In this document: piece after piece, positions 1 to 36,902 of the stretch
How positions within the stretch are numbered: position 1 is the first letter of the stretch
How the letters are laid out: every line of letters starts with the position of its first letter
Source: Sulfurimonas sp.
GTDB taxonomy: Bacteria; Campylobacterota; Campylobacteria; Campylobacterales; Sulfurimonadaceae
NCBI GenBank assembly: GCA_026988235.1
Contig: JALSLQ010000084.1
Location: 1 to 36,902 of the forward strand
DNA length: 36,902 bases
Direction: 5' to 3'
Program-made: the position numbers and the translations under genes
Notes under the pieces: generated by a model
What the model was told of the DNA's origin: nothing
Databases searched by the model: none
What the model saw: the letters and a program-made list of their open reading frames with translations, nothing else

Positions 1-1
1 C

Positions 2-2965
2 CTAGAAAATCTCTCAACTGGAAAACTCCCAATGAAGTTTTCTTTGGTTCAAAAATGGCTGCTTAAGGATAAAATTGATATGATTTATAAATTCAAAAAT
101 TGCACTTCAGATTTAAATTTTGGAAATAAATATATAGACGCTTCTAACATAGTACAAAAAGAAGATAAACAAGACTTTATTGAAATATTAAAAAACTTCA
201 ATGAAGAGTTAAAAAGTAAAATCAATAATAACAAAAGTTTAAATACAGTAATTGAAAATGACATAAGTTCATTAATGGGACTTGTTAATATTAAGAAACT
301 ACTTGAGCAAGACAATATCGTTAAAGGTTTACTAAATGCCTATAAAAGTTCCATTATTCCTTATTTCAAAAATAATAAAGAAGATGACAAATTAAATAGA
401 ATTTTATATTATCACCCATCGCAATATTTAAATGACATAGGCATTAAACAAAACAACAAAAATACACTTAGACTAAGTAAAGAAAATGTGAAACTATTGC
501 AAAAAAAGCACCTTGGTTCATTTAACTCAGAATTTGCAATAACTATGTCTCAGCGATTAGCGATTAGCAGTTATCTGTCTCCAATGGATATTGTTCCAGT
601 TAATGGACCTCCTGGAACAGGAAAAACTGCATTACTTAGAGCGATATTTTCAGACTACATTGTTAAAGCCGCAATAAAGGCAAAGTCTAGTTATGACAAT
701 GTTAAAAAAGATCCTTACAGTTTTATTGATACTGGAAAACCAATACTAGGGACATCTAGTGTAAGGCAGGCTATTAATAATATTATTGAAGGTATATCAG
801 GTGGATTTGATGATGCTAAAAAGAGTAAAAAAGTTTTATATAGAAGGTGGCTAGTATTAAAGGATTTTGAAGCTGATGTTAAAGTTAATTTAGTTGAAGA
901 AAACTGTGTAGTTCCTCAAATTAGAAATAGCGAAAACAAATATGAAAACAAAGTTTTATTTACAAGTATAAATAAAATCTTTGACTATATTTCTTCTTTG
1001 GATGTTCAACTTGCTGAAATTGATTACTTGAATAAGATTAACTTAATATCAAAAAGGAATATAGAAGACTTGGACGATGCTATAAAATTTCTTTTTTCAA
1101 ACATTAATAGACTTTCAAATGAAATAAATACAAAGATTGATGATTCTCCAGACAATGAGTTATCCAAAACATATGAAAAATTAGATAAAAATGAGAGATT
1201 TGATACATTTTTTATTAGTCTTCATTTATTGGAAGCTTTTTTTATTTTAAATTTAAAAAAATTAAATAAAAAATCATCTAATGGAAAATGTCCTATTTGT
1301 AATAATTCTATTGAAAGTAATGATTATGTTTTTCAATGTGCTTCTTGTGACTTCAAAATTTACAAAAAAGATAAATATAATGATATAAGTATTACAAAAA
1401 CTGAAGATTTAAAAGCTCTCTTAGATAATAACTTAGAGCAAAATGATAAGTTTTATGGAATTAAATATTATGATGGTGGTTATAAAATTGTTTCAAAAGA
1501 TGAATCTGGTTCAGATTTATCTAACGACATCAATAATATATATTTAATAACACCATTATTTCCAATGATAACAGTAACTATGCATTCCCTTTTTGGTGCA
1601 TTTAAGCACAAAGATAATGATGAATATATACTTATTAGAGAGTTTTTTGATTTGGTTTTATCTGATGAATCTGGAATGATTTTAGCTCCTATCGGACTTC
1701 CTGCACTATATGTTGCTAAAAAAATGGTTATTGTTGGAGATGAAAAACAAATAGAACCAGTATATCCATTTGATGAAGTTGTTGATAAATCAATAGTTGA
1801 CAATATTTCACCTGATATTGATTATAGTAAATTTAAAAAAAATCATTCTGCAATTTTTTTAAACTTTTTGACAATTGCTAATAGATCAACTTATTTTGAT
1901 AGTTTTGAAATGGAAGAGCATGAAGATAATTCATTGTGGCTAAAGGAACACTTTAGATGTAAAGATGAAATAATTGAATATTGCAATGAAATAATTTACA
2001 AAGGGATTTTAATTCCAAAAGTAAGGTTTTATACAAATAAATTATACCTTGATGATGCGAAAGATTTCTACCCGTCTATGAAACTGTTCAACATTAATTC
2101 AACTGTTAAAAACAATAGTAGCTATATAGAGACAAAAGAAATAGTTAAATTTTTACTAGAGAATATTTGTAATTTAACTGATATGTACAATAATCATAAT
2201 GAAAAAAATCTATCTTATGAAGAATTTCATGAGCATATAGGAATTGTTACACCATTCAATAATCAAAAAAAGATGATTACTCGAGAATTAAAAAAAGTAG
2301 AAAAATACAACTTAGATAAAATTCTTGTAGGAACTGTGCATGCCTTTCAAGGCAGCGAAAGAGAAATTATAATCTTTTCACCAACAGTTGACAAAAATTA
2401 TAACGGAATACATTTTAGCAATCATGATGATGGAAATATGATGAATGTAGCGGTCTCGAGGGCAAAGAGTGCATTTTGGATATTTGGAAGTAAAGAAGGC
2501 TTAAAAAATTGTGGTGAATACACAAATAAATTAGTAGATTATATTGATACTAATTATGAGTGTGAAATAAAATGTCCAATATGTAATCATTGCATTAATG
2601 AAGATGAAAAAGCTTTTAAATGTGAAAATTATAAATGGGATTATAAAACAAAAAAAATCACTGGTTGTAATTTTATAATATGGAAGTCCAATAAGATAGC
2701 AAACTGTGATTTTAACAAGAATAATTTAGTGAGCTTGTTAACTAATGATGAAATTATTTTAAATGGTAAAAAATTTATATTAGATATTAAAAGTAAGAGT
2801 TTTATAAAAGAGAACTCTAATACTATCCATATGGAAAGTACAGATAAAGAGTATAAAAAATGTCCTCAATGCGAAAGCGAACTAAAGGAAAGAAAAGGCA
2901 AATATGGTGATTTTTATGGATGTAGTAACTTTCCAGACTGTAAGTATACAGAAAAAATCATCTAA
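2..2965 (+). CDS. Superfamily 1 DNA/RNA helicase with zinc ribbons, 5' end cut by window
   Basis: The frame is open to the left edge, so the first in-frame ATG (position 32) need not be the true start. Counting from that ATG: Walker A GPPGTGKTALL lies near residue 192, a DE-box DESGM near 543, GDEKQIEP near 568, GTVHAFQGSERE near 766 and VSRAKSAFW near 807. This is the motif order of UvrD/Upf1-like SF1 helicases with a long insertion after motif I. Two CPIC-type cysteine clusters (near 420 and 850) and a C-terminal topoisomerase-type C4 zinc ribbon (CPQC...GCSNFPDC) add nucleic-acid contacts. It should unwind or translocate on nucleic acid using ATP. Codons are very AT-rich compared with the genes from 3389 on, and the next gene is decayed, which suggests acquired DNA. 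A defence role is possible but not shown. Positions 92-125 are repeated perfectly, inverted, near the right end of the window. Confidence 0.85.
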   Translation, partial: LENLSTGKLPMKFSLVQKWLLKDKIDMIYKFKNCTSDLNFGNKYIDASNIVQKEDKQDFIEILKNFNEELKSKINNNKSLNTVIENDISSLMGLVNIKKLLEQDNIVKGLLNAYKSSIIPYFKNNKEDDKLNRILYYHPSQYLNDIGIKQNNKNTLRLSKENVKLLQKKHLGSFNSEFAITMSQRLAISSYLSPMDIVPVNGPPGTGKTALLRAIFSDYIVKAAIKAKSSYDNVKKDPYSFIDTGKPILGTSSVRQAINNIIEGISGGFDDAKKSKKVLYRRWLVLKDFEADVKVNLVEENCVVPQIRNSENKYENKVLFTSINKIFDYISSLDVQLAEIDYLNKINLISKRNIEDLDDAIKFLFSNINRLSNEINTKIDDSPDNELSKTYEKLDKNERFDTFFISLHLLEAFFILNLKKLNKKSSNGKCPICNNSIESNDYVFQCASCDFKIYKKDKYNDISITKTEDLKALLDNNLEQNDKFYGIKYYDGGYKIVSKDESGSDLSNDINNIYLITPLFPMITVTMHSLFGAFKHKDNDEYILIREFFDLVLSDESGMILAPIGLPALYVAKKMVIVGDEKQIEPVYPFDEVVDKSIVDNISPDIDYSKFKKNHSAIFLNFLTIANRSTYFDSFEMEEHEDNSLWLKEHFRCKDEIIEYCNEIIYKGILIPKVRFYTNKLYLDDAKDFYPSMKLFNINSTVKNNSSYIETKEIVKFLLENICNLTDMYNNHNEKNLSYEEFHEHIGIVTPFNNQKKMITRELKKVEKYNLDKILVGTVHAFQGSEREIIIFSPTVDKNYNGIHFSNHDDGNMMNVAVSRAKSAFWIFGSKEGLKNCGEYTNKLVDYIDTNYECEIKCPICNHCINEDEKAFKCENYKWDYKTKKITGCNFIIWKSNKIANCDFNKNNLVSLLTNDEIILNGKKFILDIKSKSFIKENSNTIHMESTDKEYKKCPQCESELKERKGKYGDFYGCSNFPDCKYTEKII
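92..125. repeat. 34-bp repeat, copy 1
   Basis: Perfect reverse complement of 36776-36809. In the helicase frame it encodes FKNCTSDLNFG. Confidence 0.85.
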
Positions 2966-24328: not shown

Positions 24329-25512
24329 CTTGAAACTCCTATTTTATGGGGCTTATCGTACATTAGATTATTGGCGGTGCCGGATTTGTGCCAGTTATCC
24401 AAAAAATCAGCCCTCTTTTTTCTTTGATTTTTATCCTTAATTACCTTATAGGCTTTTGCATAAACCTTTAAAGTTATATCAGAACTCTTATGTCCCATCA
24501 TCTGTGATACCCATGTGATCTCTTCACCATTTTGTATCATCAAAGATGCAAATGTATGTCGAAGTTGATATAAATATCGTGTATCATTTTCCTTAAGCAA
24601 ATTTTTAAACTGTAATGCAATCGTATCATGGCTATAAAATGGCTTATGAAAAGAACTAAGAAATACCATATCAAAGACATTTCCACCTGTAAGTTCATAT
24701 TGCCTACGAAAATATTCCTTTACATTAGGCATCATCTCTACCGTTCTTTTTGATGATTTAGTCTTTGGTGGTCCAAATTCACCTCTTATTCGTGTTCTTT
24801 TAATTTTAAAAGTTTCACTTTCCCAATCAATATCACTCCACTTTAAAGCTACTAATTCACCAGGTCTAACTCCACTAAATACCATAATAGCAAAGAAGTT
24901 TTTTTTATATCCAGTAGCTTCTTCTAAAATTGAACGCATTTCTTCTAATGAAAAAGGATTAACATCTTTATCTTCTTCATCGATTTCATCATCTTCATCA
25001 AAGACTTCTTTCACTGCAGGTCTTGGGACTCTATTAAAAGGATTAGAATCTATCAAACCTTCTATTACTGCATCATCCAATATAGTATAAAATATTGACC
25101 GATACTTTCTAACACTCGATGCTTTATAACTTTCAAGCTTCTCGTTCTGCCAATCACGCAACTGCATTGATGTAATTGTTGAGACCAGCCTCTTTCCAAA
25201 TTTAGGTATAATATGCTTTTTAAAATGATTTTTGTAGCTTTTTTGCACATGATTTCTTCTTTCATTAACATGTCTTTTAAAGCTCAGTTCACCATAATCT
25301 GCAACTGTTTGAATAACAGCAACTCGTTCAGCTTTTGGAACATAAGTTCCAAGAGCTATTTCTCTGTTTATACTAGGTATGACATCATTGATCAGAAGTT
25401 CTCTGTTTTTAACAGTATCCTTAAGACCTGTACTTGGTCGAGTTCGTCTTCCCTCACCATAATGTATATCTAGTATTAACTTACCGTTTTTAGTTCGTAT
25501 TTTTACACTCAT
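24325..25512 (-). CDS. Tyrosine recombinase (phage-type integrase)
   Basis: 395 aa. N-terminal arm-binding region (KIRTKNGKLILDIHYGEGRR), SAM-like core-binding domain (~75-165) and catalytic domain: GVRPGELVALKWSDI with the first Arg (~214), YQLRHTFASLMIQNGE with the second Arg, MMGHKSSDITLKVYAKAY with the His and the nucleophile Tyr. The position three before the second Arg is Tyr rather than His, a common substitution. An acidic insert (DEDDEIDEEDKD) lies near 180. It ends on the ybgC start codon. No att core could be identified by eye. Weak ribosome site AAAGGG just upstream, overlapping the end of the excisionase-like gene. Confidence 0.93.
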   Translation of the reverse strand: MSVKIRTKNGKLILDIHYGEGRRTRPSTGLKDTVKNRELLINDVIPSINREIALGTYVPKAERVAVIQTVADYGELSFKRHVNERRNHVQKSYKNHFKKHIIPKFGKRLVSTITSMQLRDWQNEKLESYKASSVRKYRSIFYTILDDAVIEGLIDSNPFNRVPRPAVKEVFDEDDEIDEEDKDVNPFSLEEMRSILEEATGYKKNFFAIMVFSGVRPGELVALKWSDIDWESETFKIKRTRIRGEFGPPKTKSSKRTVEMMPNVKEYFRRQYELTGGNVFDMVFLSSFHKPFYSHDTIALQFKNLLKENDTRYLYQLRHTFASLMIQNGEEITWVSQMMGHKSSDITLKVYAKAYKVIKDKNQRKKRADFLDNWHKSGTANNLMYDKPHKIGVSR

Positions 25513-25523
25513 AAAAAATCCCT

Positions 25524-25862
25524 TTAAACGGCACTTCTACACTCAGGTATTATACCAAGTTGTAGATTTACTGCATCTAACTTTTCTTGCTTGTTTGAAG
25601 ATTTTCGCCTGCCTTTAACACCACTTTTCTTTAGCTTAATAATCTCTTCTGGTACAAATTCACGAGTTCTATCATTCTTCACAAAATGAATTCCTTCAAC
25701 AAATACACCATCCTTAAGATAGTTATTAAATGTGTTCTTAGTTATTTCAAGGAAGTGTATCACTCCCTTTTCTGTCTCAAGATTTGGTAAAAATAGTTCC
25801 ACCATTTCCACTAAGCGTGCCTGCTCACTAATAAGCAAATCAATCTTTTCTTCAAAAAACAT
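25524..25862 (-). CDS. Small putative excisionase/DNA-binding protein
   Basis: 112 aa, 11 nt upstream of the integrase gene on the same strand. The central TFNNYLKDGVFVEGIHF, followed by REFVPEEIIKLKK, resembles the winged-helix MerR/AlpA-type fold of excisionases, and the tail GVKGRRKSSNKQEK is basic. An excisionase or directionality factor is the expected partner in this position. GGAGATG precedes ATG 25862. The assignment rests on position and a weak motif. Confidence 0.55.
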   Translation of the reverse strand: MFFEEKIDLLISEQARLVEMVELFLPNLETEKGVIHFLEITKNTFNNYLKDGVFVEGIHFVKNDRTREFVPEEIIKLKKSGVKGRRKSSNKQEKLDAVNLQLGIIPECRSAV

Positions 25863-25899
25863 TAAGCATCTCCTATCTCTAATAAATCTTTTACTAATT

Positions 25900-27054
25900 T
25901 CAAAACTTATTCTCCCTATCTAAGCTATCGAACTTGTCCGACTTATCCAAAAGCACAAATACATCTCTATTATGATTCTCTTTCTCTTTAATTGCTCGCC
26001 AATAATACTCTTTTGCTGCCTGAATAACAGCATTAACTTTATTTTTTGTAAATCCACAATCATTGGTGCAGTAGCTTAATATTTGGGTATATGTTGGCTT
26101 TTCATTATTTTTTATATAATTAACAATTGTTAGTCTTATTTGTTCACTTTCCTCTGTCTCTTTAGCAAAGAACAAGTCACAACTTTCTATCATATTTTCA
26201 GCTTTAGAAAATTTAAAAGCCACTTCACTGAGACTACCAACTCTCTCTTTTATTGGTTTTAAAATAAAGGTATTTTTAAATCGATTTTGTTCTAACATAA
26301 AAGCTGAACTCACATCCTCGAGCCATGCGGCTGCACCAGCAAAGATCGTTTCCATGTCTTTTTGAGGTTTGTTTACATGATGTAGTAAAAGCACTGTTGC
26401 ACCATTATTTCTAATAGTTTTAATGATATTTAAAAACTCAGAAACATCCTTATTGCTATCTCTATCTTTACCATTTCCCATGAAGTTTTTTGAAGAATCA
26501 AAAACAATTAAATATGATTCAAGTGATGCTCTAGATAATATATTTAATATGTAAAGCATCTTTGATTTTGAAACTGATGATGAGTGTAAATACCTAAACT
26601 TGCCTTTATACTTATCCTTCAACTTATTGATTTTTCTATCTGATAAAGTGACAAGAGAATTGTCCAAATCTAGATATAATAAATTGTCAATTAATTTATT
26701 TTCAAGACAAAAAACAGCGCTCCCTACTGCAAAAGAACTTTTCCCTCGACCAGGAGCTGCAATAATTATTGTTACTTCTTTTTTTATAATACACGGAGTA
26801 AGATACTCTACTTTTATATTTTCAAAATCACTAGACGCTATATCATGTTTTTCAAGCATGCTACTTAGTTCATTTTCATCGATTTTAGTACCATTTTTAA
26901 TACTCTTTTTCAACTTTTTGATTTCAGATTCGATAATTTTTCGATCTTTTTCATCTACAGCAAGCTCCAAACTTAAATTCTCTAATTTTTTAATTTTTAG
27001 AATTACTTGCTTCGTCACTTTCACTTTCTTTTCTATCTCTGCTATACTTAGCAT
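25900..27054 (-). CDS. RepA/KaiC-like RecA-fold ATPase of the integrated element
   Basis: 384 aa from ATG 27054, preceded by AAGGAAGTGAC; an upstream ATG at 27120 would overlap the previous gene and lacks this site. N-terminal ~85 residues are helical coiled coil. The RecA/DnaB-like core has Walker A AAPGRGKSSFA (~107), YLDLDNS, Walker B SYLIVFDSSKN and TVLLLHHVNKP, then AGAAAWLEDVSSAF, the arrangement of plasmid RepA hexameric helicases and related phage ATPases. The C-terminal ~90 residues resemble a winged helix (TYTQILSYCTNDCGFTKNKV). It probably acts in replication of the excised element. Confidence 0.8.
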   Translation of the reverse strand: MLSIAEIEKKVKVTKQVILKIKKLENLSLELAVDEKDRKIIESEIKKLKKSIKNGTKIDENELSSMLEKHDIASSDFENIKVEYLTPCIIKKEVTIIIAAPGRGKSSFAVGSAVFCLENKLIDNLLYLDLDNSLVTLSDRKINKLKDKYKGKFRYLHSSSVSKSKMLYILNILSRASLESYLIVFDSSKNFMGNGKDRDSNKDVSEFLNIIKTIRNNGATVLLLHHVNKPQKDMETIFAGAAAWLEDVSSAFMLEQNRFKNTFILKPIKERVGSLSEVAFKFSKAENMIESCDLFFAKETEESEQIRLTIVNYIKNNEKPTYTQILSYCTNDCGFTKNKVNAVIQAAKEYYWRAIKEKENHNRDVFVLLDKSDKFDSLDRENKF

Positions 27055-27082
27055 GTCACTTCCTTTATTTGGTGAGTTTTGA

Positions 27083-27742
27083 TTAAAAATTAAAAACAAG
27101 TTGAGAATTACCGTTCTCATTTTGTTTTACCTCGTACTTAGTTGCAATTTCTATTTTTATAAATGTTTCAGGAGGAGGTGCTTGATATTTTTGGCATAAA
27201 TACTTTAAATCTTCAAAATTAAAATCAAAATCCAATAAATTATCATTCCACAATTCTTTCAATATCTTTATTTTTGTGAAATCATCAAAGGTTGAAAATT
27301 CATCTAACTTAATCTCATTTTCACATATATTATCACTAATACTTATCTCAATATCATTAATATGTATATGAAAACTAATATCTAAACTATTTTTATATCT
27401 AGGATCAAAGAGATTTTTATGCATACTTATATGCCTTTCAAATAACCAGTCTATCACATTGTCTAATTTATTAGAATTGCATACAATTGCAAAAGACCCC
27501 TTTCTTTTCCATTTTTCTAATTTAGAAACAACATCTTTCTCTACGATTTTTGCAAAATCATCAACTCTGTTACCCAACCAATTCCATTTTCTACAATTTA
27601 ATAAAGTTTCTTTTGTAACATCCCTACAGCATTCCCAAAAATAATCATCCTTATTTTTAATACAATGTAAGAATTCTTCTATATCATTGTATTTCTTTAT
27701 AAGCAAAGTTCTATATAATGAACTAAAATTTTGTTTTTTCAT
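27083..27742 (-). CDS. Unknown element protein next to the RepA-like ATPase
   Basis: 219 aa from ATG 27742, which follows AAAGGAGAAAACA. Soluble, no membrane segment, rich in Trp, Cys and acidic residues (DYFWECCRDVTKE, NCRKWNWLGNRVDD). I recognise no family. Its place between a divergent regulator and the RepA-like ATPase suggests a replication or control function. Very AT-rich codon use, like the rest of this module. Confidence 0.6.
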   Translation of the reverse strand: MKKQNFSSLYRTLLIKKYNDIEEFLHCIKNKDDYFWECCRDVTKETLLNCRKWNWLGNRVDDFAKIVEKDVVSKLEKWKRKGSFAIVCNSNKLDNVIDWLFERHISMHKNLFDPRYKNSLDISFHIHINDIEISISDNICENEIKLDEFSTFDDFTKIKILKELWNDNLLDFDFNFEDLKYLCQKYQAPPPETFIKIEIATKYEVKQNENGNSQLVFNF

Positions 27743-27826
27743 TGTTTTCTCCTTTGTATTTTGAATTGTACAAACAAACATCGCAATAAAATTACGAAGT
27801 TAAATTTGACAAAATGGAGACACAGA

Positions 27827-28801
27827 ATGGGTAAATGTCATATTATAAATGAATTGCTAAAAATTGTTTATAAAGAGGGAGGCACATCGACTGTTTCCTT
27901 ATCTGAACAGCTTGATTTAAAAATAAGAAATCTTCAAAATCACTTAAAAAAACTAAGTTCATCTACTTGCCTTGATGTACATAACAATGTTTCTTATTCA
28001 AAAGAAAAACTCGATATAGAGTCAATACAAGGAAAGAGTGTATGCTACAAGCTTAATCCAATATTCAAAAGCACTTTAAAGAAATTCAATTCAAAGGAAA
28101 GAAATAATATTTTATATATTGTCTCAGCAATACATTTTTGTGAAGATCTTCACTATTATTCTAATGAGCATAAAATCAATTTTCTTTTTAATTTACTAAA
28201 CTATTCAATTCAAGAATTGCATGACAGTTCATATGTTTTAAGCACTAATATGGAAGTAGAAGATTTAAACTTAAAAAAATATAATTTATATTATCTAGAT
28301 ATTAATAGCAATTTACACCCAATTAACAAACCATTGATGCTGTATTTTCATTCAATTTATACAAGAAATAATACAATTTACTTTCTCTTCTATGATCAGA
28401 ATATTCAGTTTGAATTTATCAAAAAAAAAGATATTCATACTTTCAATATAGCAAATGCTTCTCCGGAGACACAAACATACAAAGAAATAGATAGCGAAAA
28501 AGTAAAATATTTTTTACACAAAGAAAACTTGTTTTTTGATATAAAAAATAAAATCAAAATCAAAATTGACAATACCCTTTTAAAATCACTTAATAAAGAT
28601 TTTTTTAATATTACAATAAATTCTTTCGCTCAAACAACTACTATTATCACCATGAAAGAAAGTTATAATTTTTTATTTCCATTCTTAAAAATGAATATTG
28701 ATAAAATCACAATCATTGAAGGAGATTCCACTCTAATAGAAGATCTTAAAGAGTATTTTCACCAAGACCTATATGCCCATGTAGCAAATATTAAAACTTA
28801 A
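27827..28801 (+). CDS. HTH regulator, WYL-like architecture
   Basis: 324 aa from ATG 27827, preceded by TGGAGA; a TTG-type extension to 27731 would read through the divergent promoter. The first ~60 residues contain a winged helix (LLKIVYKEGGTSTVSLSEQLDLKIRNLQNHLKKL) of the DeoR/WYL type; the remaining ~250 residues have alternating strands that could be WYL/WCX-like sensing domains, though the W-Y-L triad is not clear. It is divergent from the replication genes (84-bp gap) and is probably their repressor or activator. Very A-rich codon use. Confidence 0.6.
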   Translation: MGKCHIINELLKIVYKEGGTSTVSLSEQLDLKIRNLQNHLKKLSSSTCLDVHNNVSYSKEKLDIESIQGKSVCYKLNPIFKSTLKKFNSKERNNILYIVSAIHFCEDLHYYSNEHKINFLFNLLNYSIQELHDSSYVLSTNMEVEDLNLKKYNLYYLDINSNLHPINKPLMLYFHSIYTRNNTIYFLFYDQNIQFEFIKKKDIHTFNIANASPETQTYKEIDSEKVKYFLHKENLFFDIKNKIKIKIDNTLLKSLNKDFFNITINSFAQTTTIITMKESYNFLFPFLKMNIDKITIIEGDSTLIEDLKEYFHQDLYAHVANIKT

Positions 28802-28834
28802 CTATAACTATTCAACCCATTGAAAGTTAGACAT

Positions 28835-28857
28835 GAACTATATTTGTAATATAGTTC
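28835..28857. terminator. Perfect 10-bp hairpin between convergent genes
   Basis: GAACTATATT, loop TGT, AATATAGTTC. It lies between the regulator gene and the reverse-strand small-gene series. Its position fits a bidirectional terminator; there is no T-run, so a protein-binding palindrome is an alternative. Confidence 0.5.
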
Positions 28858-28926
28858 CAAAATGACAGAAAATAAATAAATTAGAGAGATTCAAATAGAA
28901 AATATCAGAATAAATATAGGTGTACA

Positions 28927-29352
28927 TCAAATTTCTCTTCTAAAATCAACAACCCCACCCTCTATCAAATCATTCGAAACACGCAACATAGAAAGACCGG
29001 TAATTGTTTCATATGTAAGAACACTCCTGCTTTGTCCAACATAATCCACGCTGTATTGCATGCCATATTTATCTACAACTGTAGTATCTTCTTTTACAAC
29101 ATAAATCATCTCTTCAATTGCTTGAAAATACTCCTCATTATAAGCAGAAAGTAAAAAGAGATCAAGCTCTTCATCACTAAGCATTATGAGAAGGTCTGGT
29201 GGAAGCGTAATACCTTGTGTGTCATCAAATGTTTCTACTTTTTGCATAAATGCATCTATGATTTCACTCTCACTCATCCCTGCATTACCATCCAAAAATG
29301 TAAACTCTGTAAATGTCTCTGTAGTTGGATTATCATAAATTAACTCTATCAT
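28927..29352 (-). CDS. Acidic soluble protein of unknown function
   Basis: 141 aa, last gene of the small-gene series. No signal peptide or membrane segment. Strongly acidic in the first 90 residues (SESEIIDAFMQKVETFDD, LSDEELDLFLLSAYNEEYFQAIEEM), then a strand-rich end (YGMQYSVDYVGQSRSVLTYETI). No family recognised. It lies 21 nt after the membrane-protein gene 29374-29754, so it is probably in the same transcript. Confidence 0.6.
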   Translation of the reverse strand: MIELIYDNPTTETFTEFTFLDGNAGMSESEIIDAFMQKVETFDDTQGITLPPDLLIMLSDEELDLFLLSAYNEEYFQAIEEMIYVVKEDTTVVDKYGMQYSVDYVGQSRSVLTYETITGLSMLRVSNDLIEGGVVDFRREI

Positions 29353-29373
29353 CTCTTCACTTTTTTGTTGTTT

Positions 29374-29754
29374 TTAAAACAATTTGCAAATCATCTCTTT
29401 GAGCCATACATACTTCTCATTTCTCAGCACAAAATAATAAAAAGCAAAGAGCAGTGTCCCTACAAAGAGTAGCAGTAAAATTCCCTGAATGCCATTTGCC
29501 AGATAGATAAGTCCTAAGAGTGTGGATTGTATAAATACAAATGCGTAACGGTTGTTTGGATCTACCTTATCTATCCAATCAGGTATCTTGGATTTACCAA
29601 TAAAGTAGATCATTACCATCGTTATAATAACACTTAGTAAAAAATGCCATCCACTTATATAGTGATACTCTACCCCTATAGTTTTACAAGCTGTTGCCAT
29701 TGCTTCATTGTAGTAAAATAAAAAACTGTGTATGTAGTTATTGATGATATCCAT
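29374..29754 (-). CDS. Small polytopic membrane protein
   Basis: 126 aa with about three hydrophobic segments (WHFLLSVIITMVMIYFIG ~37-54, YAFVFIQSTLLGLIYLANG ~70-88, ILLLLFVGTLLFAFYYFVL ~91-109). AAGGAGAG precedes the ATG. No family recognised. It sits between the 42-aa ORF and the acidic protein gene. Confidence 0.6.
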   Translation of the reverse strand: MDIINNYIHSFLFYYNEAMATACKTIGVEYHYISGWHFLLSVIITMVMIYFIGKSKIPDWIDKVDPNNRYAFVFIQSTLLGLIYLANGIQGILLLLFVGTLLFAFYYFVLRNEKYVWLKEMICKLF

Positions 29755-29783
29755 CTATCTCTCTCCTTAGTTTTTGTTATGGA

Positions 29784-29912
29784 TTACTTGATATTTTGAC
29801 TATTAAATGAGTTCGTTTTTATGATGAGTGTTACAGTATCATCACAACTCTCGATAATGGCATTGATCTCACTCATTGTAATATCTAACAGCATGTCTTC
29901 ATTGCTTCTCAT
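29784..29912 (-). CDS. 42-aa small protein
   Basis: A short ORF: ATG at 29912, TAA at 29784-29786, preceded by AAGGAGAGTAGGATT, one of the best ribosome sites in the series. The product begins MRSNEDMLLDITMSEINAII and ends TNSFNSQNIK; it is acidic, mostly helical and has no membrane segment. It starts 4 nt after the stop of the preceding gene, exactly filling a gap in a tightly packed operon, which supports it as a real gene. Function unknown. Confidence 0.6.
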   Translation of the reverse strand: MRSNEDMLLDITMSEINAIIESCDDTVTLIIKTNSFNSQNIK

Positions 29913-29916
29913 AATC

Positions 29917-30288
29917 CTACTCTCCTTTATCTCTTGATTTGCAGTTTTTTAAAGAGATAAGAGTGTCATTTTTTAAAAAGCTCTCTTTACTAAGTTGCCA
30001 CCCTGTTGATTTTTGCACAAGATAGGTGTTAAATCCTGTATCGCACTCAAGCGCAATACCTCTGTTGAAATCTGCTTTATTATTTATAAGACTCTTTTTA
30101 GTATCGGATGCATCCCAAAACATAATTGTTACCATTAAAACAAGAAAGAAGGCTGCCATTACTCTAATACCTATGTTCTTTGTTCCTTTTTCGTAGTTTT
30201 CACCTAGCTCTTTTATTACTATTGCAAAGAGCCCCAACAGCATTAATGGCCCCATCATTAAAAACAATGGATTTACATACTCAAACAT
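29917..30288 (-). CDS. Two-TM protein with Cys-pair domain, paralogue C
   Basis: 123 aa. Two N-terminal membrane helices (FLMMGPLMLLGLFAIVIKEL and VMAAFFLVLMVTIMFW), then a ~60-residue C-terminal domain: FNRGIALECDTG, YLVQKSTGWQLSKESFLKND, SLKNCKS. The layout R-G-x2-L-x-C ... Y-x-V-x-K-x2-G-W ... F-x-K ... C recurs in the proteins at 30420-30755, 30755-31129 and 32963-33220. The cysteines could form a disulfide if the domain faces the periplasm. Starts with MFEY like paralogue B. Overlaps the 45-aa ORF by 8 nt. Confidence 0.68.
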   Translation of the reverse strand: MFEYVNPLFLMMGPLMLLGLFAIVIKELGENYEKGTKNIGIRVMAAFFLVLMVTIMFWDASDTKKSLINNKADFNRGIALECDTGFNTYLVQKSTGWQLSKESFLKNDTLISLKNCKSRDKGE

Positions 30289-30418
30289 CCTCTAACCCTT
30301 CATCTTTTTTCTCTGCATCTCTCTTTTGCGCTCGAACAAGCCCTACCATTATAAAGGCTGCAACCATTCCTATAGCCACCAATAACTCTAATACTGCTGA
30401 TCCTGCAGGCGTAATCAT
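30281..30418 (-). CDS. 45-aa single-pass membrane protein
   Basis: ATG at 30416-30418, TGA at 30281-30283, overlapping the start of paralogue C. The product begins MITPAGSAVLELLVAIGMV, with a hydrophobic helix of about 20 residues and a charged tail (RAQKRDAEKKDEGLEDV). It starts one base after the stop of paralogue B. The shape, a short N-terminus, one helix and a charged tail, resembles small phage membrane or coat-type proteins as well as small regulatory membrane proteins; no more can be said. Confidence 0.58.
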   Translation of the reverse strand: MITPAGSAVLELLVAIGMVAAFIMVGLVRAQKRDAEKKDEGLEDV

Positions 30419-30419
30419 C

Positions 30420-30755
30420 TTATAGTCTCTCACACTTATTAGCTCGTATCATTAGGGAGTCTTTTGTAAAATAATCTCCCTCTAAACTCCAGCCGTTTTT
30501 CTTAGAGACTCTATATCTGTTTGCTTCACTATAAAGACCTCCGCCACTTAAACACTTCAGCGCTGTCCCTCTTTTAAAATATGTTTTATTCTCCTGTGCT
30601 GTAGAGTAACTGTCATGTGCATCCATAAAAAGAAGTGCAATACAGATTACTCCTAAAGTAGTAACAAATGGATCTCTCGTTTTTTCAAAAAAGAGTGGTA
30701 TTATAAATACAACACTCAGCACAAACAAAGCACCATTGTTCATATACTCAAACAT
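30420..30755 (-). CDS. Two-TM protein with Cys-pair domain, paralogue B
   Basis: 111 aa. Two hydrophobic segments (~7-23, ~31-45), then FKRGTALKCLSG, YRVSKKNGWSLEGDYFTKDS and LMIRANKCERL. It is the closest relative of paralogue A (both have YRVSK..GW and KDSLMIRA..C). Its stop overlaps nothing but is one base from the next start, and its ATG overlaps the stop of paralogue A by one base, so translation is probably coupled. Confidence 0.68.
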   Translation of the reverse strand: MFEYMNNGALFVLSVVFIIPLFFEKTRDPFVTTLGVICIALLFMDAHDSYSTAQENKTYFKRGTALKCLSGGGLYSEANRYRVSKKNGWSLEGDYFTKDSLMIRANKCERL

Positions 30756-31129
30756 TACTCCATCTCCTCACATCTATCAGCCCGTATCATGAGCGAATCT
30801 TTTATAAAGTAGAATCCATCTACCTCCCAGCCATCTTGTTTGCTTACCCTGTATTTACTACTATCATTTGTGCAGCGAAGTACTTTAACACCCCTAAATA
30901 GTTTTATATTCTCTTTTGCTTGCATCATTGAACTATCTGCTTGAAAAAATATAAGTGCTGTAATAAAGAGCACATAGGCAAACCAGTAATATTTGGCACT
31001 GCTCTTTTTACTGCTTTGTAGCTGTTTGGATTTTTTCTTCTGTGTACTCAATGAAGGTACCAGAAATACCAATATTAAAGAGAGTAAAAAAAGTGCTTTT
31101 ATAAGCTCTGAATCTATAAACTCTATCAT
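30755..31129 (-). CDS. Two-TM protein with Cys-pair domain, paralogue A
   Basis: 124 aa. First membrane segment ALFLLSLILVFLVPSL (~11-26), a basic loop (TQKKKSKQLQSSKKSS), second segment YYWFAYVLFITALIFF (~47-62), then FRGVKVLRCTND, YRVSKQDGWEVDGFYFIKDS and LMIRADRCEEME. Same domain plan as paralogues B and C. By the positive-inside rule the basic loop is cytoplasmic, which would put both the short N-terminus and the Cys-pair domain in the periplasm. It overlaps the upstream gene by ATGA. Confidence 0.68.
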   Translation of the reverse strand: MIEFIDSELIKALFLLSLILVFLVPSLSTQKKKSKQLQSSKKSSAKYYWFAYVLFITALIFFQADSSMMQAKENIKLFRGVKVLRCTNDSSKYRVSKQDGWEVDGFYFIKDSLMIRADRCEEME

Positions 31130-31527
31130 CTCTTTTTCTCCTCTTTTAAATCTAGCGATGCACTATATGCAACTACAGCTTGCTCTATTGCCTCACCCAT
31201 TGTTATATTCTCTTCGCAGCAACAACGGATTAATTTTTTTTGCAGCTCCTTATCAAGTAAAACTTCTACTGCAATCTCATCTTCTTTTGGTTTGCAATCT
31301 TCTTTTACTTCCAATGAAGATGAGACCTCTGTATTTATAAAACGATACAACACCACAATTGCAATAACAACAAAATATAAAGAGATCACAAATGCTATGT
31401 CAGGGTGTTGCTTCCCATACTCTTCAAACCAGTATGCCGATAATACCATTGCCAAAAAATAGAGATGTGCAAACCATACATTACGCCACTCTATCTTTGA
31501 AAAGAGACTCTTTTTTTTATCCTGCAT
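31126..31527 (-). CDS. Membrane protein with ribbon-helix-helix-like cytoplasmic tail
   Basis: 133 aa. Two hydrophobic segments (~17-34 VWFAHLYFLAMVLSAYWF and ~43-62), followed by an acidic linker and a C-terminal piece, IAVEVLLDKELQKKLIR then ITMGEAIEQAVVAYSAS, which has the strand-helix-helix pattern of ribbon-helix-helix DNA-binding domains. A CCC triplet sits between the helices. A membrane-tethered DNA-binding or oligomerisation module is the inference. GAGAGGAAG precedes the ATG. It follows a 109-bp gap that may hold a second promoter. Confidence 0.58.
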   Translation of the reverse strand: MQDKKKSLFSKIEWRNVWFAHLYFLAMVLSAYWFEEYGKQHPDIAFVISLYFVVIAIVVLYRFINTEVSSSLEVKEDCKPKEDEIAVEVLLDKELQKKLIRCCCEENITMGEAIEQAVVAYSASLDLKEEKKR

Positions 31528-31636
31528 TATAATGCTTCCTCTCTGCCAATATTCAATACAAACTATGCAACTTATTTAAAAATATTTTAACGCAAATAAA
31601 AGCTCAATCTATCATAATTCACAAAGTGTGAAAGAG

Positions 31637-32314
31637 TTAAAAAAGATCTATATCTTCACAAAAATCATAATTGAGAATAATCCTCATGAGGTGTTCATTC
31701 CCTATTCCTTCCTCCTCATCATAGCCTATAACATTTACAAAGTACTCTCTATAATTGATTTGCATACGAGCTTCTATGTAGAGTCCTGCTAGAGAACCAA
31801 CAGCAGTAATAAGATCATTCCCCTCATATAAAACACCATTACTCACTTTTAAGAGATAGAGGCTCATATTTTCATCATCGCGTCTAATATAGCAATCAAG
31901 CTGTTTTATATAGGTTAAGTTTGCGTAGATGTCATTTATTTTTTCAATATCTTCTATTATCTTTTGGGCTTTATAATCGTAAATAAGATAGGGCATTTTA
32001 TTCTCCTGCAAATACTCTGCGAGATAGACATACTTTTTTTTAAGAGATTCGATTTTATAGATATGATCATTACTAGAGCATGATGAATCACCATAGAGCA
32101 AAAATTCCAAAGAGGTCTTATGCTTTTTTGCAAACTTTGCTAATGCCTCATAGGGGATACGGTTACGACTCTTTATATTGGAAAAGTTTGAAGAGGAGAG
32201 ACCTAGAGCATGTGCTATCTGTTTGTTCTGCGGGGTACTCTTCTCCTGTAGTTCTAAAATCACAGAGACTCTTTGTATAATCTCTTCAAAATTCACATCT
32301 TTTATTTCACTCAT
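31637..32314 (-). CDS. Phage CI-type HTH regulator
   Basis: 225 aa. Residues ~8-75 match the phage CI repressor helix-turn-helix family: FEEIIQRVSVILEL, NKQIAHALGLSSSNFSNIKS, then RIPYEALAKFAKKHKTSLEFLLYG. Residues ~80-225 have no visible LexA-type Ser/Lys autoprotease motif and may sense a ligand or oligomerise. AAGGAGAG precedes ATG 32314. It is probably the control gene for the surrounding series; unusually it lies in the middle of the series, not divergent from it. Confidence 0.78.
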   Translation of the reverse strand: MSEIKDVNFEEIIQRVSVILELQEKSTPQNKQIAHALGLSSSNFSNIKSRNRIPYEALAKFAKKHKTSLEFLLYGDSSCSSNDHIYKIESLKKKYVYLAEYLQENKMPYLIYDYKAQKIIEDIEKINDIYANLTYIKQLDCYIRRDDENMSLYLLKVSNGVLYEGNDLITAVGSLAGLYIEARMQINYREYFVNVIGYDEEEGIGNEHLMRIILNYDFCEDIDLF

Positions 32315-32327
32315 AAGCGCTCTCCTT

Positions 32328-32702
32328 CTAATTATCTAATACTGTAACTACAACACCATCAACAACTTTTACTGCATACCCATCACACCTGTAAGTACCA
32401 CTGCCAAGCTCTTTTATCTTTTTAGAGAGAGTTGGTGGCACTATCTCTTGTGTAATCTTTTCTAAATCAAGTGCATAGACTCTTTGCAGATACCTGATAA
32501 TGGCATGTTCACTGACAATGAGACTATCTGAAGAGGTGCTAAGCTGTTTGATCTCATTTTTATATTTTTGAATCTGGTTATTGAGTTTATCCCGTCTGCT
32601 TTGAATGGCATTAAACTCTCTGTTTAGCTCCTCTTTTTCTAACTCTTTTTTCGTAAGCAGTACCTGAAGATTTTTTATCTTTGTCCCTGTTAGATGTTGC
32701 AT
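32328..32702 (-). CDS. Coiled-coil protein with phage-type C-terminal domain
   Basis: 124 aa. Residues ~1-60 are a lysine- and glutamate-rich coiled coil (LLTKKELEKEELNREFNAIQ). The C-terminal half, SEHAIIRYLQRVYALDLE ... YAVKVVDGVVVTVLDN, resembles a small domain I have seen in phage proteins (pattern HAxxRYLxRVxxxDxE ... VVTVL); this is recall, not a search. The gene overlaps the WGR gene by 13 nt, with AAGGAGAG before its ATG. Confidence 0.58.
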   Translation of the reverse strand: MQHLTGTKIKNLQVLLTKKELEKEELNREFNAIQSRRDKLNNQIQKYKNEIKQLSTSSDSLIVSEHAIIRYLQRVYALDLEKITQEIVPPTLSKKIKELGSGTYRCDGYAVKVVDGVVVTVLDN

Positions 32703-32953
32703 TGTAGTCTCTCCTTCTCTTTGGTGTAACCTCTGTTTAGTTTTTTAGCAAGGGTTTGGTTGTATGCATTTATTGCGGCTTCAAGAGTACAAAAATACTC
32801 CTCTATTATGCGCGTTGCCCTTTTTGCTTTGATGCTTCCATACTCTTTGATAAAGATATACTCTCCAAAGAGATTAAGCAGTATGGAGAGTTTGTAGTAA
32901 CGCACTCTCTTGTTTACTTCACGATAGAGTTTTACTTGGTGTGGATAGCGCAT
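32690..32953 (-). CDS. WGR-domain mini-protein
   Basis: 87 aa. RVRYYKLSILLNLFGEYIFI, then KEYGSIKAKRAT and CTLEAAINAYNQTLAKKLNRGY match the WGR domain in order (Y-x-l ... L-F-G ... W-G-R replaced by Y-G-S ... F.s.eeA...........K...GY). WGR domains bind nucleic acid ends or act as protein adaptors; stand-alone versions occur on plasmids and phages. It contains nothing besides the domain. Its 3' end overlaps the coiled-coil gene. Confidence 0.68.
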   Translation of the reverse strand: MRYPHQVKLYREVNKRVRYYKLSILLNLFGEYIFIKEYGSIKAKRATRIIEEYFCTLEAAINAYNQTLAKKLNRGYTKEKERLQCNI

Positions 32954-32962
32954 CTTTTACTC

Positions 32963-33220
32963 CTACTCAATACCATCTGCTCTCTTGCAACTCTTCATAT
33001 AAACAACCCTATCGCCTTTTTTAAAGAACTTCTCTTTATAAATACTCCATCCACCCTCTTTGGTAACAAATGCCTCTTCGCCATATTCATGCAAAGATGT
33101 ACTACACAGCAGTGGTACGGCACTCTCAAACTCCTCTTTTATATCAACGGATGATGAGCACCCTTGTATTATTAGAGTGAGTGTTGTTGCTATTATGATT
33201 CTTTTTTTATTTATCTTCAT
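32963..33220 (-). CDS. Lipoprotein with Cys-pair domain, paralogue D
   Basis: 85 aa. MKINKKRIIIATTLTLIIQGC is a lipoprotein signal with the lipid-bearing Cys at 21. The remainder, VPLLCSTSLHE, FVTKEGGWSIYKEKFFKKGD and YMKSCKRADG, is the same Cys...K-x2-G-W...F-x-K...Cys domain as in paralogues A-C, here on a lipid anchor in place of two membrane helices. This supports a periplasmic location for the domain in all four. GAAGGAAG precedes ATG 33220; a terminator-like hairpin lies upstream. Confidence 0.7.
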   Translation of the reverse strand: MKINKKRIIIATTLTLIIQGCSSSVDIKEEFESAVPLLCSTSLHEYGEEAFVTKEGGWSIYKEKFFKKGDRVVYMKSCKRADGIE

Positions 33221-33247
33221 CTTCTACTTCCTTCTATTAAATTGTAG

Positions 33248-33284
33248 TAAAAACTCTGCTTTAGATTTAAAAGTTTTGCAGAGT
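33248..33284 (-). terminator. Intrinsic terminator after the 33322-33747 gene
   Basis: On the reverse strand ACTCTGC, an 18-nt loop and GCAGAGT are followed by TTTTT (33248-33252). It lies 38 bp after the stop of the four-TM protein and before the lipoprotein gene, so it separates these two transcripts at least partly. Confidence 0.6.
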
Positions 33285-33321
33285 GTCATATTTTAAATGT
33301 TGGCTTTTCTGTGCGTGTTGC

Positions 33322-33747
33322 TTAGTAACAATCATCATCACAGTAGTACCCATTACGCCCACCACCAGCGATTCCAATTGCAATCACAACTAAAAAAGCA
33401 ATCGCTGCTGCACCAACAACATAAAAGAGAAGCTGTACAATTGAGAGCACAACTCCCTCTTCAAAATTTGTATTTTTTATATTGATCCATATATCAAGAA
33501 CTATAAGAACAATACCGATAGCTATCATAAGCTGACCATTTAAAATATCACCACCATTTTTTAAAGCACTCTGGTAAAAATCAAACCCAAAATATATAAG
33601 CGCATAAGCTATAGTTACTAATACCAAAGTTCCACCATCAAATATTTGGTAGTTAAACTTTTTTGTGGTGTATTGGTTTATCATGGTAACTATCAACCAT
33701 CCAACTACAGCGGCTCCAATGAGACCAAATATTGTTAAAACAACCAT
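33322..33747 (-). CDS. Four-TM small membrane protein
   Basis: 141 aa with four hydrophobic stretches (~4-21, ~40-57, ~72-89, ~102-126). The C-terminus ends GGGRNGYYCDDDCY, with a Cys pair flanking acidic residues, possibly metal-binding or disulfide-bonded. AAGGAGAAAGCG precedes the ATG. First gene of the reverse-strand series and separated from the rest by a terminator, so it may be made in excess over the others. No family recognised. Confidence 0.62.
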   Translation of the reverse strand: MVVLTIFGLIGAAVVGWLIVTMINQYTTKKFNYQIFDGGTLVLVTIAYALIYFGFDFYQSALKNGGDILNGQLMIAIGIVLIVLDIWINIKNTNFEEGVVLSIVQLLFYVVGAAAIAFLVVIAIGIAGGGRNGYYCDDDCY

Positions 33748-33962
33748 CGCTTTCTCCTTCTTATTTTACTTTTTACAATAGCGACTCTTTGCGAAAACAT
33801 TAATTCGTTACGAGTGACTTTCGCAGTTTATGCTTTTTTACTATATGGCATATATACAAACCAGAGTATACACAATAATCTAATAATTTCCAAATTTTTT
33901 CTATGCCAATTTTTTATAGTGTATAATTTCTTTATAATATCAATGAACAGAGGCAAGTAAAG
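33748..33962. promoter_or_regulatory. Divergent control region with inverted repeats
   Basis: It contains TGCGAAA (33790-33796) paired with TTTCGCA (33819-33825), and TGGCATA near 33855 paired with TATGCCA near 33903. Both are candidate operators, for example for the CI-type regulator at 31637-32314. Two TATAAT boxes at 33922-33927 and 33933-33938 can serve the forward gene at 33963. Confidence 0.45.
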
Positions 33963-34787
33963 ATGACAGAAGAAGAGAATCAGGAGAGACTCAGAGGTTT
34001 AAAAGAAGAACTTCTTAATTCCTTGAAAAAAGAGTATGGCAATATTCCTGTTACTACCCTTGAATCATTGACTAAAGAGATTAAGCTAATACCGAGTGTG
34101 CGTAGTGGTCATGAAGAAAAAAGAGATACTACGAATTACTGTGAACTCTCCCCTACAAAGCTCAATGAGTATGATGAACTCCTTGTTCAAGAAAGAGAAT
34201 TAGGTCCAGCAAACAGTAGACTTGTTGAAAAGTACAGCTTAGTATATGGAGATTTATTAGTATCGTATCGTGGATATAGAAATATACTTATCGGCAGATT
34301 TGCAAAAAAAGAATGTAATAGACCTGCCGTTGCGGCAGTGAGTAATATTCTTATAAGATTTGAGGAAGAGACAAGTGAATCACTTTCTCTGCTAGTGCAT
34401 AAATATCTTACAGATGGTCCTGCGCAACATTACCTGCGATCTGGAGCAGTAAATCCTGATGATGGAAGAGATCGTTTCCACAGACGATATCTACTGAGTA
34501 AAGAGTATTTGGCAAATATTCCAATTCCCGATTTTAGAGTACTTATGCAAGAGAACCCAATTGACAAACTCTACTATACTCAAAAAGATTTATTGGCAAC
34601 TATCATGCATCTTTATTCAACTATATCAAAGATGCGTACAAATATAATGAAAAAAGATGAGTCCTTACTACAGGTTTATCTCAAAAACAACAGTGCACTC
34701 CCTGAAACACTTCACCAGAATAAGAAACTGCTAGAGCAGCTTAAACTTTTAGAGAAACAGGCTGAGAGGCTTTTAGACGAGTCATAA
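33963..34787 (+). CDS. Orphan HsdS-like protein with a single target-recognition domain
   Basis: 274 aa. After ~60 helical residues, EKYSLVYGDLLVSYRGYRN, VAAVSNILIRFEEE, LLVHKYLTDGPAQHYLRSGA and YLLSKEYLANIPIPDFRVL follow the order of a type I restriction S-subunit target-recognition domain (y.l..GDilis.rG ... v.s...i.ir ... L...L.S..gq..l.s ... s...l..i.iP.P). The C-terminal ~60 residues form the long helix that in HsdS packs against the methylase dimer. Full HsdS has two such units; this has one. No hsdM or hsdR is in the window. It could form a homodimer and borrow a host HsdM, or be an anti-restriction mimic. Confidence 0.65.
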   Translation: MTEEENQERLRGLKEELLNSLKKEYGNIPVTTLESLTKEIKLIPSVRSGHEEKRDTTNYCELSPTKLNEYDELLVQERELGPANSRLVEKYSLVYGDLLVSYRGYRNILIGRFAKKECNRPAVAAVSNILIRFEEETSESLSLLVHKYLTDGPAQHYLRSGAVNPDDGRDRFHRRYLLSKEYLANIPIPDFRVLMQENPIDKLYYTQKDLLATIMHLYSTISKMRTNIMKKDESLLQVYLKNNSALPETLHQNKKLLEQLKLLEKQAERLLDES

Positions 34788-34820
34788 ATTTAGAGTGATA
34801 AATAAAATCAAAGGAAGAAA

Positions 34821-35336
34821 ATGAAAAGAAAAATATTAGGATTAGTTGCAGCAGTAACATTATCAACAGGAGCTTTTGCAGCAAGTGATTTACAAATTGG
34901 CAGCGGTTCAGTCAGTATTGATGGTATGCAAAATGAAACGTCTTATTTTGTGGGTGCTGATGGTGCAAATGTGGTAAAAACAGGAGCGTTAAAAGGCACT
35001 TTAATTGGTATTGGCGGGAACATTAACGTTTTTAGTGTTGATACAATAACTGCTACAGGTGGAGCTTACACTATGGCGGCTGATTTGCTTGTTGGTTATA
35101 CATTCAAAGAATCTTTCAATATTCCTCTTACGCTTAAAGCTGGTATTGGTTATGGGGTAACTCGTGATAATATTGTAAATAAAAATTCATGGGCACCTCA
35201 ATATAGTGCTTCTGCTGCATTTACAATCTATAAAGGAATTGGTCTTGGAGTAAGATACAATACAACTAAGCCTACGCTTCTTGGTGTTAAGAGAAATATT
35301 AAATCTACAATCGGGTATTTAAATATTGCCTATTAA
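34821..35336 (+). CDS. Small outer-membrane beta-barrel protein
   Basis: 171 aa. Signal peptide MKRKILGLVAAVTLSTGAFA, then alternating amphipathic strands (YTMAADLLVGYTF, LTLKAGIGYGVTRD, YSASAAFTIYKGIGLGVRYN) ending in a strand with a C-terminal aromatic residue (STIGYLNIAY), the usual barrel-insertion signal. About eight strands fit the length. AAAGGAAG precedes the ATG; it follows the HsdS-like gene by 33 bp. No adhesin or porin subtype is evident. Confidence 0.72.
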   Translation: MKRKILGLVAAVTLSTGAFAASDLQIGSGSVSIDGMQNETSYFVGADGANVVKTGALKGTLIGIGGNINVFSVDTITATGGAYTMAADLLVGYTFKESFNIPLTLKAGIGYGVTRDNIVNKNSWAPQYSASAAFTIYKGIGLGVRYNTTKPTLLGVKRNIKSTIGYLNIAY

Positions 35337-35428
35337 AGAAATACTAAATCTTTACAATGTACAGTTCAAAGTCAAATTAACGATTCTGGCTGACACAGTT
35401 ATGTTTGCACTATCTTACTTTCATTTTA

Positions 35429-35833
35429 TTACCAAGATACACTAATATTAATTGAAGCTTTCGAATCCCAATACTGATTATGTGTCACAGAATAACCTTT
35501 TTTAATTAATTCTCGTATCACCAATGAACGTATTACATCTTGTTCTTTTCTTGACAATGGCTTTAAAAGTTCTGAAATTTTATTTGGAGCATTTATATAA
35601 GTTATTATAAATGAATTATAATAACCACCAGATGCTATCCTTGCAATATTTTTATTAAAAAATATAATTAATCCATTATATGCTTTTTTCCCATTTGCAG
35701 ATTTCATAATATGTTTTTCTAGTTTTTTTGTCTCTTGTATTGTTGTTTTATGGGCATCTTTTGCTGGAATTAGCCCACTTGCACTAAGCATGCTAAAACC
35801 ACCTATTAATATTATAAATAGTATTTTATTCAT
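35429..35833 (-). CDS. Exported protein of unknown function
   Basis: 134 aa. MNKILFIILIGGFSMLSASG is a signal peptide. The mature part is basic and strand/helix mixed (YNGLIIFFNKNIARIASGGYY, SRKEQDVIRSLVIRELIKKGYSV), ending ASINISVSW. The C-terminal region looks like a small stator or TonB-C-like alpha/beta fold, but no family is recognised. It lies 23 nt downstream of the repeat-bearing lipoprotein gene and is probably co-transcribed. Confidence 0.62.
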   Translation of the reverse strand: MNKILFIILIGGFSMLSASGLIPAKDAHKTTIQETKKLEKHIMKSANGKKAYNGLIIFFNKNIARIASGGYYNSFIITYINAPNKISELLKPLSRKEQDVIRSLVIRELIKKGYSVTHNQYWDSKASINISVSW

Positions 35834-35856
35834 CGATTTACCTTTCTCTATTTATT

Positions 35857-36681
35857 TTAATTTGATTGACATCTATATTTGTCAAGTTCATTATATAAAC
35901 TGATTAACTTACTGCCTGCAGCTACATCTATCTTATTTTGTATGTTTTTACATACTTTATTATGTACATCTCTTTTTCTTTTGGCATTGGCTTCTCTTTC
36001 CTTTTTAACTTTGGCCTTTCTTGCTTCTCTTGCTTCTCTTTCCTTTTTAACTTTGGCCTTTCTTGCTTCGCTTACTTCTCTTTCCTTTTTAGCTTTGGCC
36101 TCTCTTTCTTCGCTTACTTCTCTTTCCTTTTTAGCTTTGGCTAATAGAAGTTTTTTTCTTACGCTCACTAAATTATTATCTCTAACAACTTGATCAAAAA
36201 GTGCTTTATCAAAGGTAGGCTGAGAACCTATTGAGCCTGTTACCGCTGTCAACCCTAGACTAAGGACAGCACTGATTCCTCCACCTATTGCAGTAGTAAT
36301 AGCATCTTTATCCTTGAAAAACTGGCTATTACAATATTCTTTTTCTTGTTTATTTTGTAAAGAACTATTCATGCAACATTGAACAAACTGCTTCCCTTCT
36401 TCAATTTTAAAACTCATTTTATTTTTATAATTTGGGTAAAATCCATACTCAGATATAATAATAACTTCGTCTTTACCATTTTTCTCACTATTGGGATTAT
36501 TATCAATAGTGATTAATACTCCATTTTTATCAACATGTGCATACCTTAATGGATTTTTAGCAGATAATACTATTTTTTCATTATCTCGTTGTAAGGCATT
36601 TTTATGTATTGAAGGTTGTGTTGCTGAACAAGCGTTAAAGGACATTATTATTAAACAGTTGATAATGATTTTTTTAGTCAT
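35857..36681 (-). CDS. Putative lipoprotein with K/E/R-rich tandem repeats
   Basis: 274 aa. Signal with a lipobox-like SFNAC (Cys ~18). Residues ~25-130 are a strand-rich domain with a CC...C cluster (QFVQCCMNSS, KEYCNSQF), then a hydrophobic glycine-rich segment (TTAIGGGISAVLSLGLTAVTGSIGS, ~130-155) that could insert in a membrane. Residues ~178-235 are 14-residue repeats of the type AKKEREVSEEREAK, predicted to form a long charged helix. The last 40 residues carry two more cysteines. The repeat number could vary between strains. No close family recognised. Confidence 0.62.
   Translation of the reverse strand: MTKKIIINCLIIMSFNACSATQPSIHKNALQRDNEKIVLSAKNPLRYAHVDKNGVLITIDNNPNSEKNGKDEVIIISEYGFYPNYKNKMSFKIEEGKQFVQCCMNSSLQNKQEKEYCNSQFFKDKDAITTAIGGGISAVLSLGLTAVTGSIGSQPTFDKALFDQVVRDNNLVSVRKKLLLAKAKKEREVSEEREAKAKKEREVSEARKAKVKKEREAREARKAKVKKEREANAKRKRDVHNKVCKNIQNKIDVAAGSKLISLYNELDKYRCQSN
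35991..36142. repeat. 42-bp tandem repeats (three and a half units)
   Basis: Units start at 35991, 36033, 36075 and 36117 (the last partial), each beginning CTTCTCTTTCCTTTTTA. They encode 14-residue repeats in the lipoprotein on the reverse strand. Long forward ORFs over this stretch are artefacts of the repeat. Confidence 0.85.
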
Positions 36682-36902
36682 CTTTTATTACGGTTCCTAT
36701 ATTGAATAATTTTAAAGGTAATGTTATCAATTATAACCTTAAAAACAATATTAATAAAAAACAACTTGAAAAAGATTCCAAAATTTAAATCTGAAGTGCA
36801 ATTTTTGAAAATTCAAAATTGAAAAGTTGTAAATTTAGATTTGAAGAGGTTAAATGTTAAAATCTCACTTCAAATTCTAACCACAGAAAAAGGAAGAGAG
36901 AT
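36682..36902. other. Non-coding end region with mixed-orientation repeats
   Basis: No convincing gene. It holds the promoter side of the lipoprotein gene, a 34-bp copy (36776-36809) of a sequence also found inverted at 92-125, a palindrome CAATTTT...AAAATTG (36799-36821), an outer inverted pair ACAACTT (36761-36767)/AAGTTGT (36824-36830), and related words AAATCTGAAGTG, AGATTTGAAGAG and, inverted, CTCACTTCAAATTC. Confidence 0.5.
36776..36809. repeat. 34-bp repeat, copy 2 (inverted relative to 92-125)
   Basis: Perfect reverse complement of positions 92-125. Here it is intergenic; the other copy is inside the helicase reading frame. Flanks are unrelated on both sides. Confidence 0.85.

Follow-up and report, generated by a model that had tools for sequence, protein, structure and literature searches.

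A perfect inverted repeat at the two ends of a contig

Close to its two ends, a 36,902-bp contig of Sulfurimonas sp. carries perfect reverse complements of 34 bp (positions 92-125 and 36776-36809), and the question arises what kind of element, if any, these sequences delimit. The stretch analysed, referred to below as the window, comprises contig C84 in full and comes from a draft genome of 1,805,074 bp in 93 contigs. Comparison of the window sequence with itself upheld the basic observation of the preliminary description: the pair is exact, the match breaks off on either side of both copies, leaving unrelated flanks, and a chance origin is essentially impossible, as a random sequence of 36,902 bases with the window's composition would be expected to contain about 9e-11 such pairs.

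We are almost certain that the inverted pair represents the 32-bp terminal repeats of one multicopy insertion sequence (IS) of the IS30 family, whose copies flank the window and inside which the contigs end. The repeat is 32 bp long because the mismatches among the ten copies listed in the genome are confined to the two outermost bases of the 34-bp match; these outer 2 bp agree by chance. The coordinates of the features are given in Table 1.

Table 1. IS-related features at the two ends of the window
Feature	Position	Strand	Evidence
IS30-family IS right end, copy 1 (remainder off contig)	1..123	+ (transposase strand)	100% to five contig ends over at least 123 bp; 80-82% to right ends of L069 and L048
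Transposase, last 21 codons and stop, PRKSLNWKTPNEVFFGSKMAA*, frame 1	1..66	+	14/21 identical, E 1e-10, to C terminus of 323-aa L069 transposase
Right terminal inverted repeat, 32 bp	92..123	-	Same 32 bp at ten listed IS ends, outer flanks different
SF1 helicase gene (AAA_11/AAA_12, Zn_ribbon_Top1), 5' part apparently removed by IS insertion	124..2965	+	Pfam; 70%-identical G543 homologue
AAAT, candidate 4-bp target duplication	124-127		Matches flank of left end C20
IS left end, copy 2, oriented as copy 1	36778..36902	+	100% to three contig ends; 93-94% to left ends of L069 and L048
Left terminal inverted repeat, 32 bp	36778..36809	+	Same 32 bp at ten listed IS ends

Distribution of the repeat in the draft genome

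The preliminary description had offered a dispersed repeat family as one explanation, and this part of it stood. A search of the 1.8-Mb genome with the 34-mer, in which up to 3 mismatches were allowed, listed ten copies (0-2 mismatches) on eight contigs, and the reversed pattern, serving as the control, gave 0 matches in the same genome. All ten listed copies are situated no more than 130 bp from a contig end. Six of them are right ends and four are left ends of the element, and the outer flank differs from one to the next. Window positions 1-127 match five other contig ends at 100% over 123-127 bp (C75, C86, C31, the start of C5, and C3), while positions 36776-36902 match three others at 100% over 124-125 bp (C91, the end of C5, and C20). 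Over at least 123 bp inside the element, the right ends are identical to each other, and so are the left ends; their outer flanks differ. Contig C5 of the same genome has at both its ends the same arrangement as the window.

Three pairs of ends (C75 with the start of the window, C86 with C31, and the end of C5 with C91) have exactly 127 bp in common, a few matching flank bases being counted in; for the remaining four ends, the stretch in common with the best partner is 124-126 bp. Sharing of exactly 127 bp is the overlap that a de Bruijn assembly with k=127 could leave, which does not account in detail for the four shorter ends.

The contig very probably ends where it does because the assembly could not read through a repeated element. 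We suggest that one IS copy lies just to the left of the window, where it would break a helicase gene, and another just to the right. A presumably short-read assembler would be unable to place near-identical copies, contigs would break off within the IS ends, leaving one terminal repeat at each end of this contig. The full elements would then be located beyond both contig ends. A section heading of PMC10771768 speaks of identical insertion sequences being collapsed by assembly. The finding is an ordinary one, i.e. the terminal repeats of two IS30-family copies, one at either end of a contig, and it disposes of a suspicious-looking observation: an unresolved IS can leave a draft-genome contig with perfect inverted repeats at both ends.

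Assignment to the IS30 family and related elements

The part of the transposase encoded in the window consists of its last 21 residues only, which match the C terminus of the L069 transposase (Table 1); the peptide alone gave no Pfam match. At the opposite side, the right end of the contig seems to fall at the AT of the transposase ATG, the position of the start codon being judged by eye. The 32-bp terminal inverted repeats are present here at left and right ends, whereas the full single-gene layout was seen in two relatives and not in this genome.

These relatives, found in two Sulfurovum MAGs, are complete elements with repeats at both ends and one 323-aa transposase each (L048, 929-2081, 1153 bp; L069, 3872-5025, 1154 bp), from which a length of about 1.15 kb may be assumed for the IS of the window. 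Their transposases score 290 (L048) and 287.8 bits (L069), exceeding the cut-off of 80 of the IS30 model (NF033563 transpos_IS30), and contain HTH_38; the match to rve (integrase core) is under its cut-off. At the transposase-start end both relatives have the identical 32-bp repeat; at the opposite end there are 1 and 3 mismatches. The left end of the window is 93-94% identical to theirs, in contrast to merely 80-82% for the right end, and those MAGs hold complete copies, as opposed to the ends only found here. The plan is that of known IS30-family elements (NF033563 transpos_IS30; e.g. ISApl1): in the complete relatives, terminal inverted repeats flank a single 323-aa transposase with HTH_38, and the transposase C terminus is present here.

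The body of an IS30 transposase was not found in this assembly (NF033563 model, 0 matches), and the interior of the element was therefore seen in the relatives only. Both ends being present and the transposase body missing, some or all of the sites might be occupied not by full copies but by a MITE-like, internally deleted IS30 derivative. We regard this as quite unlikely, given that the 123-126 bp on the left and on the right extend to the start region and the C terminus of the transposase, as in the complete relatives, and that very short repeats are easier to assemble through. Full IS30-family copies remain our preferred reading, and the absence of the transposase body fits copies lost at assembly or binning. 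The only match to rve in this genome, on C74, was over the cut-off (43/102 positions, with an internal stop); it was taken as another element, the IS30 model having given no match there.

The element is presumably mobile. By analogy with other members of the family, its transposase would act at the terminal repeats, make a circle and insert this circle elsewhere; copy-out-paste-in transposition of IS30 members is described in PMC5821093.

In public genome contigs, the search for the exact 32-mer yielded 38 stretches, derived from five MAGs: Sulfuricurvum (16 stretches), two Sulfurovum (13 and 1), Arcobacter (7) and Sulfurimonas (1), all of which we take to belong to Campylobacterota. On the element side, 33 of the 38 stretches leave the contig within 141 bases. 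The exact pattern used for the public contigs fetched left ends only: the stretches were scored as 38 left and 0 right ends, with a weak inner match behind the score in 24 of them. A search with the right end in 398 genomes of the order gave matches at E <=0.001 in 39, our genome included; below 1e-20, besides our genome, were only G330, G378 and G276, and the rest were short, weak matches. Among the loci retrieved by the public 32-mer search and by the order-wide right-end search, L048 and L069 were the only complete elements by the criteria applied. A Sulfuricurvum contig (L077) is arranged at both ends like the window and likewise starts with sequence for the transposase C terminus. In plasmids the right end found no match, and in viral contigs the 32-mer gave 0.

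At positions 182-219 of locus L019 (G000:C69), near the start of C69, the sequence matches 38 bp of the IS left end at 87% and may be what remains of a related IS.

Apparent interruption of the helicase gene

The preliminary description had placed positions 92-125 inside a helicase frame. An open reading frame on the plus strand does cover these positions, but they are not part of the helicase gene: the frame runs by chance from IS DNA into the gene. The first approximately 40 codons of this frame (2-124) belong to the IS, and annotating them as helicase would be wrong. The peptide FKNCTSDLNFG, which the preliminary description proposed to look for in other SF1 helicase homologues, is IS DNA read in the wrong frame, and it is absent from all six frames of the locus of the one close homologue found (G543, 70%).

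The search for the helicase in 200 genomes of the family yielded some match in 189 and a close one in a single genome. This homologue is 70% identical over nearly the whole length, and the next match is 32% identical over about half. The alignment starts just after the IS edge, from the second residue beyond it, and the homologue is uninterrupted at that edge. Upstream, the G543 protein extends in frame for approximately 44 codons to the edge of its contig, with a sequence different from that of the window. Based on the comparison with this one homologue, the IS appears to interrupt the helicase gene.

Misassembly often occurs at repeat ends, and one of the contig ends might in principle be a chimeric join. 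There is, in our opinion, hardly any likelihood of that, as both ends stop inside the IS, which requires no false join, and as the helicase aligns with its homologue so close to the IS edge.

A search of this genome for the lacking N-terminal part of the helicase did not find it and gave a single match (C55, E 0.19). This candidate was rejected as a chance match lying inside a complete-looking, unrelated frame, which reads as what is presumably an lpxB-like gene. Pairing of C20 with the start of the window does not restore the helicase frame, an early stop being met (read by eye), and C20 could equally pair with C75.

Two observations concern the gene and its surroundings. The helicase (124-2965) has weak similarity, far under the cut-offs, to the phage-defence helicase models NF040671 PLuB_AAA and NF058533 ProA. 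The interrupted gene is adjoined by a gene for a YcaO-domain protein (3389-5008; PF02624, 5e-58).

Candidate target site duplications

For three of the four left ends, exactly 4 bp are common to the flanks of a left and a right end: CTTA (end of C5 and C86), CATA (C91 and C3) and AAAT (C20 with C75 or with the start of the window). When flanks were cut at random, three such left ends were reached in 7 of 20,000 trials, in a test made after the pattern had been seen. The window's own left end (flank GATT) has no partner among the six right ends, and a 4-bp duplication was found in neither of the two complete relatives. The candidate 4 bp differ from the 2-bp target duplication that is given for ISApl1, an IS30-family member, in PMC5821093.

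There may exist a Campylobacterota subgroup of IS30 whose elements have diverged at their ends apart from a fully identical 32-bp left repeat, and whose target duplications may be 4 bp rather than 2 bp long. We put this forward tentatively, with more doubt than confidence.

Orientation of the elements and recombination

Inverted and placed at both ends of the window, the 34-mers might be read as recombination or attachment sites that bound a 36.7-kb island or invertible segment. The preliminary description had listed island ends and recombination sites among its explanations, and had added that recombination would invert the 36.7 kb. We consider such a unit extremely improbable. The window is merely a contig, the same repeat caps eight contigs, and the integrase (24.3-25.5 kb) is far from either copy. 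Moreover, according to our own reading of the translations, the genes between the copies are core-like, including coaBC-like, uppS-like, truA-like and glyS-like genes, which we assume to be core genes.

Both IS ends flanking the window align to the complete L069 element in the same orientation. Judging from these alignments, the whole flanking elements are direct repeats and only their terminal repeats face each other, which is a further point against an island or invertible segment. Homologous recombination between direct repeats deletes or excises the interval, here 36.8 kb. With the whole copies in the same orientation, recombination would therefore delete or excise the interval, and the postulated inversion does not follow. 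Nor was support obtained for a gene-conversion tract, another of the earlier suggestions.

Other features of the contig

The region 24325-36681 looks like an integrated element, encoding a tyrosine integrase (phrog_1, 1e-63), an AAA_25 ATPase (phrog_6357, phrog_239), a repressor-like protein (phrog_8) and many small proteins; 5 of the 10 proteins tried had no PHROGs match or nothing better than a weak one. The tRNA search of the window found none. Within the ORF at 35857-36681 on the minus strand, 42-bp near-repeats (35991-36141) encode a repeated lysine/glutamate-rich stretch.
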